Below are positions 3,911 to 24,644 of a stretch of 25,313 nucleotides of DNA, piece by piece (the stretch's first letter is position 1; each line of letters opens with the position of its first letter). The DNA is from a virus, in IMG/VR virus record IMGVR_UViG_3300020165_000140, positions 1 to 25,313 of that record. The stretch is one strand, 5' to 3'. The position numbers and the translations under genes were made by a program. The notes under the pieces are model-generated. The model had not been told where the DNA came from and searched no databases. It worked only from the letters and a program-made list of their open reading frames with translations.

Positions 3911-6571
3911 TTAAAAACCTCTTTGTCTTGTTCGGTTGCGTGATGCTCTCTCTTGAGAAAGTAGTATGTCTGATCCAGAGATGCGACCAACGACTTCAAC
4001 GCGTTGAGAGCCGTTCCCGCCGTTATTCATGAGCGCATTCAATTTCGAGAGCGGTAGAACTGCTTCTGATTCTCTACCTTCGCCAACGAGCGCAAGAGTC
4101 GGTCCCGTCACAATTCCCCCTTCAGCCAGTGCTGGAATATCACCTTCAGACGCTTTCGACATTTTCGCTCGTATCGCACCAGCGGCCGCGATCATTGCAA
4201 TACCCGCGCCCACTGCTAAAGCGGCGCCCATTGGCGTTGGCCCAGCGGCCAATGCTTTGACAAATGCTTCAACGCTGATCCCGTATTGAATAAACATTCG
4301 CCCAAGTTGATCTAACAACCCAGCAAATGTACCCAGTAAGAAAGATCCCATATCAGCAAATGACGCTTCGCCCATTACCATTGCACCCGCGATCTCTGCC
4401 ATTCCTGCGATTGTGTCGATCGTTGTGCGATGCATGAGTTCAGCAACTGCGTTGTTCAGTTCTTTGTATTTCAAAGCAAATCTCTTTGCTGATTCATATG
4501 CTTTGCGATATGAATGATCGAATTCATCTGCCGCGTCACTTGTGTTCGCAAGATTTTCTTCTGACTTATCGAACCAATCCCCCATGCCATCATAGTTGAT
4601 GTTCGCAAGTCTTTTCAGTTTTTTTTCTGCGTCTTCAGCGCCGTTGCCAAGTCCGTCAAGATCGTCTTCAACTTCTTCAATTTCAACAGAAGCCGTTGCC
4701 ATGCTCGATGCAATCTTGTCAACATTTTCGCCGACTTTCACAACTGCTTTGTTTGCGTTTTTCAAAGCGATTTCTTGAGACTTCAAGATTGCATTTGTAG
4801 CACCGACAGAAGATGCCAATTTTTGTTGTTCTGGTGTAAATTTTTGATAGCTGTTGATCACGTCTTCCAATTCGCCGTCACTAAGAATGCGACCAAATTG
4901 TTCTTTCATTTGAACAGCAAGTTCATCACTGACTGCAAGAGTTTTGTTGAATTGCGTTTGTGCGTCAACTGCTTTCTTTGTGACCGCTGTCATTTCATCT
5001 TGAGCCGCCATCAATGCTATCTTTTTGGCGACTTGTTTGTTCATTTCTCTTTGAGCGGTTGCGATGTCATTTGTCGCGTCTTTTTCATCAATCAGATTCG
5101 GAAGAAGATCACCATATTCCGTGTTTAGTTTCGTGATCAATCTTTTTCTTTGATCTTGCGCGATGTTCTGATCTTGAATCGCATTCATCAACTTGTTCGC
5201 TTGAGTCGTGCGCACTTGAGTTTCTGCAATATCTTTCTTTGCGCCTTCGCTCAATTTGTGCTGTGTTTCAACAACTTCTTTTTTGCGTCTGTTGACTAAC
5301 ATCAAAACAGCGGCGAAGGCTGCCAATCCCGCGATGACAACACCGATCGGATTTGCTGTCAGTGCTAAATTGTACGCTCTTTGAACTGCGGCCGCAATCT
5401 TTGTAACCGTGTTTGATTTGATCATTGCAAATCTCAGAAGACGAACATTTCTGATCAAACCGCCAGTCAAGAACAAAAGCGGACCGGCTGAAGCTAACAA
5501 CGCCGCAAAGACGACAACCGTCTTTTTCACTGCTGGTGAAGCCTTGTTCAATTTACTTGCAAGATTTGCGAATCCTTCAATCAAAGGAACAACGGCTTCT
5601 GCAACAACTTCACCAACAGAGATTCCGAGACCTTCCATTGCTGACTCGAGACGCTTTGAAGCACCGAGAGCGTTGTCGCCCATTTCGTCTGCCATTGATT
5701 TTGCAGAGCCTTTTGCGTTCTCAAACTCTTTCGTCAATGGCTTGATCTGATCAACGCCTTCAGCAAGAATCAAGAGTGCTGATTGTGCTGAACGACCGAC
5801 TTCATCTTTTGCATCAGCGAGACCGATGCCTTTTTCAGCGAGATCTTTCAGTGCTTCAGATGTTGGCTTTCCAGAAGCACCAATCTCTGAGATGATTCTT
5901 CGCAGTGAAGTACCAGCTTGAGAGCCTTTGATACCAGCATTTGCGAGAACAGCCATCATCGCTGATGTTTCTTCAATGCTCATTCCAGCACTTTTTGCAA
6001 CTGGAGCGACAAACTTCATTGAGTTTGCGAATGTCTCCATGTCGAGTGCAGATGTCGAGAACGATTTCGCCATGACATCTGTGACGCGACCAGTTTCTGA
6101 TGCGTCAAGACCGAATGCTCTGAGTGTAGAACCAGCGACTTCTGCCGCTCTTGCGAGATCAGAACCAGATGCTTGAGCGAGAGCGAGAGTTCCTTCAGTG
6201 ACTTTTGTGATCTCTGTTGCACTGAAACCGAGTTTTGCGAACTCTGTTTGAAGAGACGCTACTTCTCGAGCAGTGAACATTGTTGAAGAGCCTAATGCTT
6301 TCGCATTGTCTGAAAGCATTTTGAACTCTTCTGCTGTTGCACCAGAGATCGCTTTGACTTTTGACATCTCTGCTTCAAATCCTTTGAAGACATTAAAAGA
6401 GACAGCACCAAGAGCAACAAGTGGCGCAGTCAGTTTCATCGACATATTTTTGCCGGTTGCCTGCATCTTCTTGCCGAGTCGATCCATTGATCGCTCTGCT
6501 TTTGTCAGCCCTTTTTTGAATGGCGCGATGTTTGCCGTTAGGCGAAAATTAAGACTTGAGAGATTGGCCAT
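3911..6571 (-). CDS. Tail tape measure protein (TP901-type)
   Basis: The 886-residue product spans the inside of the tail tube and sets its length. Residues 1-60 form a charged amphipathic start (FKKGLTKAERSMDRLGKKM), and about 60-250 match the TP901 tape-measure core (FEAEMSKVKAISGATAEEF, ASLQTEFAKLGFSATEI, ANAGIKGSQAGTSLRRIISEIG). Hydrophobic stretches lie near 345-370 (VVVFAALLASAGPLLFLTGG), 404-425 and in the Ala/Gly-rich region near 790-815. Helical, charged sequence fills the rest. By the general rule of about 0.15 nm per residue, the tail would be roughly 130 nm, which is an estimate only. The start overlaps the end of the frameshifted chaperone frame by 23 nt, the usual arrangement. 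The gene is rich in GATC tetramers, about 25 by my count. Confidence 0.95.
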   Translation of the reverse strand: MANLSSLNFRLTANIAPFKKGLTKAERSMDRLGKKMQATGKNMSMKLTAPLVALGAVSFNVFKGFEAEMSKVKAISGATAEEFKMLSDNAKALGSSTMFTAREVASLQTEFAKLGFSATEITKVTEGTLALAQASGSDLARAAEVAGSTLRAFGLDASETGRVTDVMAKSFSTSALDMETFANSMKFVAPVAKSAGMSIEETSAMMAVLANAGIKGSQAGTSLRRIISEIGASGKPTSEALKDLAEKGIGLADAKDEVGRSAQSALLILAEGVDQIKPLTKEFENAKGSAKSMADEMGDNALGASKRLESAMEGLGISVGEVVAEAVVPLIEGFANLASKLNKASPAVKKTVVVFAALLASAGPLLFLTGGLIRNVRLLRFAMIKSNTVTKIAAAVQRAYNLALTANPIGVVIAGLAAFAAVLMLVNRRKKEVVETQHKLSEGAKKDIAETQVRTTQANKLMNAIQDQNIAQDQRKRLITKLNTEYGDLLPNLIDEKDATNDIATAQREMNKQVAKKIALMAAQDEMTAVTKKAVDAQTQFNKTLAVSDELAVQMKEQFGRILSDGELEDVINSYQKFTPEQQKLASSVGATNAILKSQEIALKNANKAVVKVGENVDKIASSMATASVEIEEVEDDLDGLGNGAEDAEKKLKRLANINYDGMGDWFDKSEENLANTSDAADEFDHSYRKAYESAKRFALKYKELNNAVAELMHRTTIDTIAGMAEIAGAMVMGEASFADMGSFLLGTFAGLLDQLGRMFIQYGISVEAFVKALAAGPTPMGAALAVGAGIAMIAAAGAIRAKMSKASEGDIPALAEGGIVTGPTLALVGEGRESEAVLPLSKLNALMNNGGNGSQRVEVVGRISGSDILLSQERASRNRTRQRGF

Positions 6572-7228
6572 GCTTTAGTTTTGCGCGTTCGTTTCTTTTG
6601 TTTATGACATCAATGATCTCTCCTTTCGTCCAGATATTGTGCTTTTTGTTTTTACTCTCCCAAGGAAAGACAATCAAATCTCTTGCCTTGATCGATTTCT
6701 TTGTGTGAACATTCAACAGAAGCGTTGTTTGCCAACGCGTTCTTTCCCATTCACTTTGTTCTTTTCTATTCTCTCGCTCATTGAATCCGCTGACTAAATT
6801 TGTCCACTCTCTCGGAAGCAAATCATAAAATTCAAAAGGTCTGAGCCCAATCTGGCCGAACGCGAATGATTCGAGATCGTCCCAAGTCGCTTTCTTTTTG
6901 TTGTGATCGCGTCGGCCTATTTCTTTTTTTCTGACTTCGTGCTGTATTGTTCTTCAAAAACAGCAAACACTTTTTCAATCAGTTCTTCATCTTCGTCAAT
7001 CCAATCTGCAATATCTGCAACGTCATAGCGAAAATGTATTTTCTCTTTTCTTGCCCCATCTTTGAAACCGCAAAACATGAGCGTGATCGCTTGATCAAGT
7101 GTCATGTCATTGCCTAAGTCTTCAAGTTGTGACAAAGTTGTTCCAGTCATTTTACTGAATTCGCGAAGTGCATTGAACCCAAATCTGACTGCGTGTTTTC
7201 TTTCGTTTGTTTCTATTATCTGAACCAT
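6549..7228 (-). CDS. Tail assembly chaperone, long form made by -1 ribosomal frameshift (G-T type fusion)
   Basis: Reading starts at 7228 in the 103-codon frame and, after slipping back one base at 6929-6923, continues in the -1 frame to the stop at 6549, giving about 226 residues. The -1 frame is open immediately past the slip: EIGRRDHNKKKATWDDLE, then SFAFGQIGLRPFEFYDLLPREW, the Gly-Leu-x-Pro-x-Glu-Phe...Pro-Arg-Glu signature of C-terminal T domains in tail chaperones. The N-terminal G part binds tape measure protein and the T part recruits major tail protein; the long form is made in small amounts. The 90-codon frame at 6549-6821 has only a TTG as possible start and its first residues lie inside the conserved motif, so it is not a separate gene. 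Position between major tail protein and tape measure is canonical. Confidence 0.88.
6854..6917 (-). promoter_or_regulatory. Candidate frameshift-stimulating RNA stem
   Basis: On the minus strand GGCCGACGCG (6917-6908) is complementary to CGCGTTCGGCC (6864-6854) apart from one bulged base, giving a 10-bp GC-rich stem around a loop of about 43 nt. It begins 5 nt after the slippery heptamer, within the 5-9 nt distance usual for stimulatory structures. The pairing is seen directly; its effect on frameshifting is inferred. Confidence 0.65.
6917..7228 (-). CDS. Tail assembly chaperone, short form (G protein)
   Basis: This is the unshifted product of 103 residues. It begins MVQIIETNERKHAVRFGFNALREFSKMTG, a pattern seen in the N-terminal domain of tail assembly chaperones encoded just before the tape measure gene, and ends in an acidic helix and a Lys tail (STKSEKKK). 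It keeps the tape measure protein soluble and helps tail tube polymerisation. The lysine codons at the end, GAA AAA AAG AAA TAG, form the slippery site. It is separated from the major tail protein gene by an intrinsic terminator, which would lower its level compared with the structural protein. The start has the A/C-rich leader AACAACATCAACAAAT in place of a Shine-Dalgarno site. Confidence 0.9.
   Translation of the reverse strand: MVQIIETNERKHAVRFGFNALREFSKMTGTTLSQLEDLGNDMTLDQAITLMFCGFKDGARKEKIHFRYDVADIADWIDEDEELIEKVFAVFEEQYSTKSEKKK
6923..6929 (-). promoter_or_regulatory. Programmed -1 frameshift slippery heptamer A_AAA_AAG
   Basis: In the frame of the short chaperone the codons are GAA AAA AAG AAA TAG, which contains the heptamer A AAA AAG in the correct phase for simultaneous -1 slippage of both tRNAs. 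This is the same heptamer as in E. coli dnaX. The zero-frame stop follows one codon later. The -1 frame then encodes the conserved T domain without interruption. A stem begins 5 nt downstream (see 6854-6917). Confidence 0.9.
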
Positions 7229-7285: not shown

Positions 7286-7723
7286 TTAAGCGACAGACGC
7301 TTGAGTCAATACGCCAGTTCCGGTAAATCCGAACGAGTATGTCACGTTTTCTTCAACCCCCGCTTCTTGTTCGTAGCTTACGAGATACGCGTCGCCAGTG
7401 TAGTCAATCTCACCACTTGTTTCAGAACCGAATTTCACTTTCACAAGTGTACGGTTTGACAACAAAGTAAACAGATCGTCTGGTGTGTCGTAATCTCCAG
7501 AGATTGAGTAGGTGACAAGTCCGTCGCCACTAAGTGACCACGCTTTGAGACCTTCAAGATTCTCTTGCCATCCAGAAGAGTCTTTTGTAGTTGTGTCGCG
7601 TGTCTCCATTGAAACACTTAATGATGCCGATGTTGCACGGCCGATGATGTCGTAAGTTGTTCCGCCATCTTCGCTGATTTGAATCACAACGTCAGTTGAG
7701 TTCATGATGCTTGTTGCAGCCAT
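7286..7723 (-). CDS. Major tail (tube) protein
   Basis: The 145-residue product resembles TP901-1-type major tail proteins, which polymerise into the tail tube. Typical elements are the N-terminal DVVIQISEDGGTTYDIIGRATSASLSVSMET, followed by RDTTTKDSSGWQENLEGLKAWSLSGDGLVTY, the conserved 'distinguish the tag' loop and central strand pair of the family, and the C-terminal VEENVTYSFGFTGTGVL. The start has a long A-rich leader (AATAAAATAAAAACAAAAGAAAATG), consistent with strong translation in Bacteroidota. The gene sits directly after the tail completion gene and is followed by an intrinsic terminator, as expected for an abundant structural protein. Confidence 0.9.
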   Translation of the reverse strand: MAATSIMNSTDVVIQISEDGGTTYDIIGRATSASLSVSMETRDTTTKDSSGWQENLEGLKAWSLSGDGLVTYSISGDYDTPDDLFTLLSNRTLVKVKFGSETSGEIDYTGDAYLVSYEQEAGVEENVTYSFGFTGTGVLTQASVA

Positions 7724-11002: not shown

Positions 11003-12313
11003 CTAAAAATTTAGGGTTTTCAATTTATAAACATAAATGTCGGAATCATTCTCTTCTGCTTTCACTTCAACAGAAGCGTCTTCAGAAGACGTGTCTGTTT
11101 TTGCTTCAGCTTCAGATTCTGATGCCAAATCTCGTTGCTTGAGTTCACTTGTTGCGTCGGGGTAAGCCGGTTGGGCAACTGGTGAAACATCCAACAAACG
11201 TGATACTTTCTCAATGATTCGATATGTTGTGCCGTTGCGTTCTTCCCAACGATCACGATCGATCAAAAATGCGAACGAACTTTGATTGATGTCGCCTCTT
11301 TTCATGAGTTCCATCAGATCGTTCGCGTATGTTGTGTTCGGTAGATCTACTTCATAGTAGAGACCTTTTTTGTCTGTGCTGATTCTTAGTGTGCCAGAAG
11401 AGACACGGCCCAAGATCAAGTTTTCGTCATGATTGAAGTACGCACGAACATCATTGTCGAGAACATCGTCAAATGCTCCGCGTTCTATTTGTTCGTAGAA
11501 ACCGCCCATCCATTCGCTGTCAGATCCGTACACCGCCGCGTAGCCTCTGATCGTGTTGCCTTCATACTCAGCAGTTTCCATTCTGAACTCACGCTCTTCA
11601 CGAATCACTGAACTCTTGCGAACTTCAGCATCAAACTTCTCAAGTGTGCTGAATCTGTGAGCAACGTTCAACGCTGGTTTTCTCTCAACATACGCATCAG
11701 TTTCTGAGTCGAATCGATAGATTCTGATGAGCGCGGCTGGGTCATCTTCTGATCCTTTGACTTTGAATCCAGAATCTGCTTCAATTTCTCCGTCACGCTC
11801 GACTTGTATGATACGACCGTAAGCAGAGCCGCCAGATGACGACCAGCGAACGAAGTCACCGACAGAGAGTGAATCTGCTTCTGCGCGATTTTCAAGAGCA
11901 GAGGCGTCTTCTGAGACATCTTCTTGTTGCTCTCCTTTGCCGAACGTGATGACGATCTCATCATCAGTCTCGACAACGTTCTTGATATGACGTTCTGATT
12001 TGTCTTCCATTTTTTCAATTGTGCTTTTTGCCCAGCGAAGCATTGCATCACCGCCCCATGCATCGTACATGATTGATCCGCAAATCTCTTTTTGATCTTC
12101 ATCAAAGTATTTGCCTTGATCATAAACTTTTGCTCTGCTCAAAAAAGAAAACGTTCTGACAAGAGTGTCTTTCGAGATCGTTTCTCTTTTTGAAAGTTGA
12201 TTTGCACGTTGCCAGCCTACGGGTGTTCCGCAGTCAGAGCCGTGCTTCTCGCGATGATCGAGAGCGCGTTTTGCATTGTTTGTCGCCGCTTCTGGGTAGT
12301 TATTGTACGGCAT
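11003..12313 (-). CDS. HK97-type prohead maturation protease with long N-terminal extension
   Basis: The protease domain occupies about residues 238-385: EFRMETAEYEGNTIRGYAAVYGS, then FNHDENLILGR with catalytic His295, GDINQSSFAF with the nucleophile most likely Ser346, and Glu368 in RIIEKVSRLLDVSPV. It cleaves the capsid scaffolding domain during head maturation. At 436 residues it is about twice the length of HK97 gp4. The extra N-terminal part has two units: residues 1-110, helical, with NAKRALDHREKHGSDCGTPV and CGSIMYDAWGGDAMLRWAKS, and residues 148-225, a beta-rich SH3-like unit (VGDFVRWSSSGGSAYGRIIQ ... DPAALIRIYRF) that recalls XkdF-type phage proteases. An acidic linker (QQEDVSEDASALENRAEAD) joins them. 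The start overlaps the portal gene by 14 nt. Confidence 0.9.
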   Translation of the reverse strand: MPYNNYPEAATNNAKRALDHREKHGSDCGTPVGWQRANQLSKRETISKDTLVRTFSFLSRAKVYDQGKYFDEDQKEICGSIMYDAWGGDAMLRWAKSTIEKMEDKSERHIKNVVETDDEIVITFGKGEQQEDVSEDASALENRAEADSLSVGDFVRWSSSGGSAYGRIIQVERDGEIEADSGFKVKGSEDDPAALIRIYRFDSETDAYVERKPALNVAHRFSTLEKFDAEVRKSSVIREEREFRMETAEYEGNTIRGYAAVYGSDSEWMGGFYEQIERGAFDDVLDNDVRAYFNHDENLILGRVSSGTLRISTDKKGLYYEVDLPNTTYANDLMELMKRGDINQSSFAFLIDRDRWEERNGTTYRIIEKVSRLLDVSPVAQPAYPDATSELKQRDLASESEAEAKTDTSSEDASVEVKAEENDSDIYVYKLKTLNF

Positions 12314-22377: not shown

Positions 22378-23214
22378 TCATTTCAGCTTGATCATCTTCA
22401 TGTTGTAATTGTCAACGCCTTTGCTGACGATCTGATCGTAGTTGTCAACGCGCTGAAGTTTCTGTTTAAATACAGAGTAGTTGACTTCATGGTGCCAACG
22501 CTCGTATCGCCAAACGACTTTCACAAGATCTGGATGTTGCTCTCTTAAACTCTCAGCGAAGTCGCGTCTGTTGTTTGAGTCAGCGTACACTTCTTCTGTA
22601 TTGCCGCCTTTCATCTTGAGCGTTCCGATCTTATCACAGAAGAACGCATTGAAGAGCAGTGTGCAGTGATCGTCTTTCAAGATACGCAATGAGAGATCAG
22701 TGTCTTCGTTGTACTTACCGCGCCATCGATGCTCGATGTCGTTGCTCAGTAGAATGCAAGAGTAGATTCTTGTGTTCATCATGTACGGCTTTCTCGTTGA
22801 TCCTTCTGGAACAAAGAAGCGATAATTCATTCCGCTCATCTTTACGTTCTCGTATCTATCTGTGAAGTCTTCAACGGCTCTGAACGTCGCTGATGTTTTC
22901 ACTTTGATCTTTCTGTTGTTGTTGAGACGACCGAAGCCAGAGATGTTGTCGTCAAGAATCCAGTGTCTTTTGTGTCCTTCTGAAATGCTGTGTTCCCAAA
23001 CCCAGTTTCGTGCTGGTATTGAGCCTTGCCCTAAGTTACTGAACGGTAGTACTAAGATCTTCGCTTCATCAATCACTGAAGCATAGTCATCGAACTCTTG
23101 TGCTTCGATCACAATGCGATAGTTGATGCCGATGTCTTCAAGTGCTTTCGCTGTGAGTCGAGATTCGTGACGACCTTTGCTGATGATGTAGATTGGATAT
23201 TTTGTCTGTTTCAT
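22378..23214 (-). CDS. Phage glycosyltransferase, TET-associated glycosyltransferase (TAGT)-like
   Basis: The 278-residue protein has the pattern I associate with the TAGT family of phage glycosyltransferases: PIYIISKGRHESRLTAKALE (7-26), VIEAQEFDDYASVI (35-48), LVLPFSNLGQGSIPARNWVW (54-73) and HWILDDNISGF (84-94), in which Asp88-Asp89 resemble the nucleotide-sugar/metal-binding acidic pair of GT-A folds. YNEDTDLSLRIL (168-179) holds the second acidic site. Some TAGT enzymes are predicted to glycosylate modified pyrimidines in DNA; a virion or surface target is also possible. No hydroxylase or hydroxymethyl-pyrimidine synthase is visible in this window. The start overlaps the neighbouring small gene by ATGA, so both are likely made together. 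Confidence 0.72.
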   Translation of the reverse strand: MKQTKYPIYIISKGRHESRLTAKALEDIGINYRIVIEAQEFDDYASVIDEAKILVLPFSNLGQGSIPARNWVWEHSISEGHKRHWILDDNISGFGRLNNNRKIKVKTSATFRAVEDFTDRYENVKMSGMNYRFFVPEGSTRKPYMMNTRIYSCILLSNDIEHRWRGKYNEDTDLSLRILKDDHCTLLFNAFFCDKIGTLKMKGGNTEEVYADSNNRRDFAESLREQHPDLVKVVWRYERWHHEVNYSVFKQKLQRVDNYDQIVSKGVDNYNMKMIKLK

Positions 23215-23982: not shown

Positions 23983-23996
23983 TGTTCTTGTTTTTA
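23969..23996 (-). repeat. 28-bp repeat covering leader and start codons, copy 1
   Basis: The minus-strand sequence TAAAAACAAGAACA-ATG-ACAACAACAGA is identical to 24631-24658. It contains the stop of the methyltransferase gene, the A-rich leader and the first four-plus codons of the 67-residue protein (MTTTE). It probably acts as a strong translation start element and the repeat may have spread by duplication. Confidence 0.85.
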
Positions 23997-24644
23997 TTTT
24001 TTTATGAATGCGCTGTTTGTGTCCCAGCCGTTTTTAAATGTAGGCAATTTGATTGCAGGTACAAAGCCATGATCTTGTAGTTCTTCGATCATCAGATTCG
24101 CTCTTGATCGCCAATCAAAACCGCTCATCGGATGAAACTCAAGAATGATTGCTCTCAAATTTGGCTGAATGATATTGTAAGAATATTCCGCTCCTTCAAC
24201 ATCGATCTTCACAACTGAAGCGTCTTTGACTGCATCTTCATATCTGATCGCTTCAACAATCACGCTCTCATGCTTTCGTGAAGATTTGACGATTGAGTTT
24301 GTTGCTCCAATACCATTTGAAAGATGAAGTTCAACTTGTTGAGAGTCATCGCCTACAACAGCGAGATTCATCATCGTTGTATTTTCTCTTTCGTTCATCT
24401 TGAGAACTTCAAAAGTAACTGGTGACGCTTCGAATGCGTTGACGTGCTTTGCGAATCTTGACGCATAGAGAGCGTATTCTCCGACATATGCACCAATATC
24501 CGCGACGATATCGTCTTTGTGAAGATCAATTGAATACGCGCTTTTCATTGGGTTTTGGAAAGCATTGTTGCTCTTTGTGTTTTTCAATGCGTAATGACCG
24601 AGAGTGTGTTTGTTCTCGATGAACACTTTTTCTGTTGTTGTCAT
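23994..24644 (-). CDS. FkbM-family methyltransferase
   Basis: The 216-residue product has the class I SAM-binding motif VADIGAYVGEYALY (47-60), the acidic strand end FEASP (71-75), a central MMNLAVVGDDSQQVELHLS, and the FkbM hallmark VVKIDVEGAE (144-153), followed by AIILEFHPM. These enzymes usually methylate sugar hydroxyls, so modification of a glycan or of a glycosylated base made with the nearby glycosyltransferase is a reasonable idea, yet unproven. The start is MTTTEKVFIENKHTLGHYAL at the 28-bp repeat. Eleven nt separate it from the preceding gene. Family assignment is firm, substrate unknown. Confidence 0.9.
   Translation of the reverse strand: MTTTEKVFIENKHTLGHYALKNTKSNNAFQNPMKSAYSIDLHKDDIVADIGAYVGEYALYASRFAKHVNAFEASPVTFEVLKMNERENTTMMNLAVVGDDSQQVELHLSNGIGATNSIVKSSRKHESVIVEAIRYEDAVKDASVVKIDVEGAEYSYNIIQPNLRAIILEFHPMSGFDWRSRANLMIEELQDHGFVPAIKLPTFKNGWDTNSAFIKK

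Follow-up and report, generated by a model that had tools for sequence, protein, structure and literature searches.

Phage lambda makes two tail assembly chaperones, gpG and gpGT, by means of a frameshift (Levin 1993; Xu 2004, 2013; all via the review PMC5009743). Both proteins bind the tape measure protein, gpGT being the rarer of the two (a ratio of approximately 30:1), and the T domain of gpGT binds the tail tube subunit (PMC5009743). Chaperone frameshifts of the lambda type are present in many phages (PMC5009743). The heptamer A_AAA_AAG, which is the frameshift site of E. coli dnaX, is highly slippery in that bacterium, exceeding several comparable heptamers, as reviewed in the same source (PMC5009743).

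We analyzed a stretch of viral DNA of 25,313 nucleotides (IMG/VR virus record IMGVR_UViG_3300020165_000140; hereafter the window), for which a programmed -1 frameshift joining two tail chaperone frames had been predicted from the letters alone. Signals conserved in relatives back this original prediction, and the locus almost certainly uses a programmed -1 ribosomal frameshift to obtain a pair of tail assembly chaperones from a single mRNA. The mechanism class is textbook knowledge; what is described here is a well-supported fresh case, with evolutionary support of unusual clarity, in a divergent phage group in which it was previously unannotated. A literature search, limited in extent and thus no proof of absence, found no paper on such a frameshift in this phage group.

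Results

The window has the gene order of a tailed phage (terminase, portal, prohead protease, major capsid, major tail protein, G, T, tape measure), the G/T pair lying between the major tail protein and the tape measure protein in the place of lambda G and T. All features of this locus are on the minus strand. The major tail (tube) protein at 7286–7723 is directly upstream of the pair (PHROG 1407, E 5e-32; Pfam Phage_tail_2, E 5e-18), and the tape measure protein at 3911–6571 is directly downstream (PHROG 1533, E 1e-92; Pfam PhageMin_Tail, E 1e-41), its ORF overlapping the T frame by 23 nt. Shared with lambda are also the succession of a G frame and a -1 T frame, the lack of a start belonging to T, and a fusion that -1 slippage close to the 3' end of G would create. 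The lambda heptamer is G_GGA_AAG, whereas the window has A_AAA_AAG with a conserved stem 5 nt downstream, and the proteins of the window fall below the curated cut-offs for tail chaperones.

The G-like zero frame (6917–7228) runs from an ATG at 7228 to the stop codon TAG at 6917–6919, encodes 103 aa and has the 3' end TCA GAA AAA AAG AAA TAG. The heptamer at 6929–6923 fits the X_XXY_YYZ phase of this frame and is separated from the stop by one codon (AAA, 6922–6920), in agreement with the predicted coordinates. Reading at -1 from G6923 yields EIGRRDHNKKKATWDDLESFAFGQIGLRPFEFYDLLPREW..., a T-like extension of 124 aa plus stop (6549–6923) that is open to 6549, and the virtual fusion of G and T has the 226 aa that had been foreseen. 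In the -1 frame, the earliest start codon is a TTG at 6821, from which simple ORF calling produces, as had been anticipated, a second gene of 90 aa (6549–6821); this product lacks the first 34 of the 124 T residues rather than 32. The TTG ORF would agree with T being a separate gene, translated by re-initiation or from an unusual start near the G stop, but the TTG is situated within the conserved T domain and its use would cost invariant residues, for example W14, D15 and FAFGQ.

The identity of the two proteins was examined by profile and by fold. The resemblance of G to tail families was weak (PHROG 2115, E 4e-4), with Pfam TAC_12 below the cut-off. T matched PHROG 16333 (E 2.8e-16) and PHROG 7377 (E 6.6e-7), both PHROGs without annotated function, with Pfam TAC_6 below the cut-off; thus neither G nor T reached a curated Pfam cut-off. 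An AlphaFold2 model of G (pLDDT 81, pTM 0.74) matched an annotated viral tail assembly chaperone in Foldseek (TM 0.82, E 2.6e-6), and there were weaker Foldseek matches to several other annotated tail assembly chaperones. Comparison with the PDB by sequence and by fold returned no matching solved structure. A model of T was dropped due to its low confidence (pLDDT 66). The predicted tail chaperone identity is supported by gene order, by the match of the G fold and by weak similarity to profiles, with no curated family above cut-off. The tail position and the fold match of G support, by analogy, a role of the lambda G/GT type.

Several other genes on the minus strand of the window were identified in the course of this work. 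The ORF at 22378–23214 encodes a TET-associated glycosyltransferase (Pfam TAGT, E 1.5e-47), whose family has links to the hypermodification of DNA in phages, and that at 23994–24644 an FkbM-type methyltransferase (Pfam, E 4e-10). In the ORF at 11003–12313, the prohead protease (Peptidase_S78) is fused to a preceding N-terminal part of approximately 240 residues, in which there is a TUDOR-like Hva1 domain. The region 1–1356 encodes a concanavalin A/laminin G-like domain protein (Laminin_G_3, E 6e-24 at 646–1356), after which comes a second similar-looking ORF at 3–629; both are downstream of the tail genes and are possibly carbohydrate-binding tail proteins.

IMG/VR was scanned with T, G and alignments of each. 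This gave 267 locus entries with both parts, a number that includes the window itself and in which many entries share a contig, and these reduced to 51 distinct junction sequences, which do not represent 51 independent events as the relatives are mutually related. A profile mixing distant relatives was too diverse for scanning. A prophage copy was sought in genome contigs, where the one match (24 residues in a Bathyarchaeota contig, with no G) was attributed to chance.

Every one of the 51 distinct junctions places the T frame at -1 and has A_AAA_AAG in frame, 0 or 1 codons ahead of the stop, followed at a spacing of 5 nt by a stem in which 6 of 6 core pairs are formed. Two layouts are found: 17 junctions have one codon between heptamer and stop, as does the window, and in 34 the stop adjoins the heptamer, the distance of the stem from the heptamer being equal in both. 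The original prediction had named two findings in relatives that would speak against it, an independent start for the second frame and loss of heptamer and stem with both frames kept. The T frame contained no ATG, GTG or TTG ahead of the conserved domain in any of the 51 distinct junctions, and in no case was the heptamer or the set of six core pairs lost with both frames retained. With no such codon before the T domain in any relative, translation of T as a separate gene is extremely improbable. At the level of sequence, this conservation in relatives is the decisive support for the cassette. The frame relation also bears upon whether a sequencing or assembly error has split one gene, which might be suspected from the 7-A homopolymer at the junction. 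The same relation is present in independent contigs from many metagenomes, with differing flanks, stop codons and A-run lengths, leaving such an error a negligible probability.

The median pairwise dN/dS was 0.09 for G (47 sequences) and 0.16 for T; by this measure both frames are under purifying selection. The value for T indicates a constrained protein, and T is very likely translated.

The 35 gene models of the window, with approximately 7,600 codons in total, contain a single in-frame copy of A_AAA_AAG, which is that at the end of G, two codons before the stop. Among 47 distinct G genes, codons -2 and -1 of the slip site are AAA and AAG without exception (47/47), compared to 556 AAA and 426 AAG for Lys codons overall. 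Codon -3 varies between GAA, GGA and GCA (Glu, Gly, Ala) with A always as the third base, and codons -4 to -7 are free to vary. This pattern is the one expected if nucleotides rather than amino acids are selected at the slip site. An upstream Shine-Dalgarno-like stimulator was also considered, and conservation was lacking in the codons concerned.

Because the site is a run of A (A7 in the window), the shift might instead occur during transcription, with RNA polymerase adding one A, or dropping two, and normal translation then entering T; A runs are prone to such slippage in other genes (PMC5009743). Across the 51 distinct junctions, however, the run is A7 in 43 and A6 in 8, and the next base is always G. 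Transcriptional slippage usually needs runs of about 9 A. In addition, the run keeps a fixed codon phase and the compensating stem an unchanging distance of 5 nt, in keeping with ribosomal slippage. The short run and the fixed stem distance make transcriptional slippage most unlikely.

The predicted stem, 5 nt after the heptamer and with one bulge, is present; in the minimum-energy fold it has 11 bp where 10 had been proposed. RNAfold pairs 6917–6912 with 6859–6854 and 6911–6907 with 6865–6861, so that the 5' arm (6907–6917) and the 3' arm (6854–6865) are interrupted by a single bulged U6860 and enclose a loop of 41 nt. The stem is GC-rich, and its first paired base is the third base of the stop codon TAG. 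The 75 nt downstream fold at -22.2 kcal/mol (z -2.6 relative to dinucleotide shuffles, of which 3/200 were as good). A folded stretch of 131 nt was not unusual overall, the modest single-sequence shuffle z disappearing at this length.

Evidence for the stem is also found in its variation. The core arms of the 51 junctions are GACCGA/TCGGTC (26), GGCCGA/TCGGTC (9), GGCCGA/TCGGCC (8), GACCAA/TTGGTC (6) and GACCGG/TCGGTC (2), so that stem pairs 2 and 5 show compensatory changes, whereas pair 6 has a G-U variant. For 22 sequences, 132 of 132 cells were paired (100%), compared to at most 66.7% when the 3' arm was slid by one to three columns, and the covariation score was matched by 2/500 shuffles. 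Since the 3' arm falls in conserved Phe-Gly codons of T (within Phe-Ala-Phe-Gly), resampling of synonymous codons that retains the T protein was used as a control. The stem folded better than the resampled mean in 35/35 haplotypes, with a median z of -2.8 (range -1.2 to -4.9). The sequences being mutually related, these stem statistics are not independent tests.

Discussion

The signals themselves, their conservation and covariation, the purifying selection, the gene order and the fold match of G are seen here and form the basis of our reading as a programmed -1 ribosomal frameshift. From them we infer the occurrence and efficiency of frameshifting, the re-pairing of tRNAs and the chaperone role. 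For the majority of ribosomes, translation would terminate at TAG, with the G-like protein of 103 aa as the product. A minority would pause at the stem beginning 5 nt past the heptamer and slip one base back, with the Lys-tRNAs re-pairing from AAA-AAG to AAA-AAA; these ribosomes would bypass TAG and extend the chain by the 124-aa T domain to a GT-like fusion of 226 aa. If the analogy with lambda holds, G may form a coat on the tape measure protein, and the less abundant fusion may recruit tail-tube subunits through its T domain.

The signals resemble those of dnaX, which likewise has a stem a few nucleotides downstream of its heptamer and a stop codon close by. The heptamer A_AAA_AAG, the near stem and the near stop are thus common to both, whereas the gene and its purpose differ. 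In dnaX there is also an upstream Shine-Dalgarno-like stimulator; in contrast, codons upstream of the heptamer vary in the phage group of the window, and the genes of the window are mostly without Shine-Dalgarno motifs.

A more distant comparison is provided by gp19/gp20 of Cellulophaga phage phi39:1, which shares the gene order and has a T domain with 33% identity across the aligned part. In the deposited sequence of phi39:1, an A8 run separates G from a T frame shifted by +1 (equivalently -2), as opposed to -1 in the window. The run within this locus (NC_021804.1 10330–11056; L029:2086–2812) reads ATA AAA AAA AGA AGG TAG, and the annotation of gp20 begins at an internal ATG, which leaves the protein truncated at the start of its T domain. 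This frame relation reflects either a different type of shift, slippage during transcription or an error in sequencing. In a phi39:1-like contig, GGG-AAA-AAG-TAA precedes a T frame at -1. Two gut phage contigs carry unannotated G/T-like pairs with T at -1 (L111:1193–1818 and L112:1220–1845) and A runs longer than that of the window (GAA AAA AAA AGG in L111, GCA AAA AAA AAG in L112); these pairs are likely to be further tail chaperone frameshifts. Taken by their sequences, the distant relatives suggest that the junction is evolvable. It is possible, although rather doubtful, that the frameshift of this group needs no upstream stimulator pairing with rRNA, being driven solely by the heptamer and 3' stem, and that neighbours such as phi39:1 have moved to another frame direction at this junction.

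The host of this divergent phage group is probably a member of the Bacteroidota. This assignment is drawn from sequence likenesses of three kinds: the primase is similar to primases of Cellulophaga and Flavobacterium phages (Arthrobacter phages match too), T has a distant homologue in phi39:1, and a Shine-Dalgarno-like motif is found at only 2/35 gene starts of the window, as expected given that Shine-Dalgarno sequences generally go unrecognised by Bacteroidota ribosomes (PMC8710568). For the major tail protein, however, the closest matches are in Firmicutes phages.

Our analysis sets right a gene model on which automatic callers fail. It also suggests a function for the PHROG 16333 family, and likewise for PHROG 7377, as the extension that a tail assembly chaperone gains from the -1 frame. 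The 51 naturally varying heptamer-stem cassettes, with their covariation, are useful for testing which features of the stem set frameshift efficiency, and may be testable on ribosomes that rarely use Shine-Dalgarno pairing.
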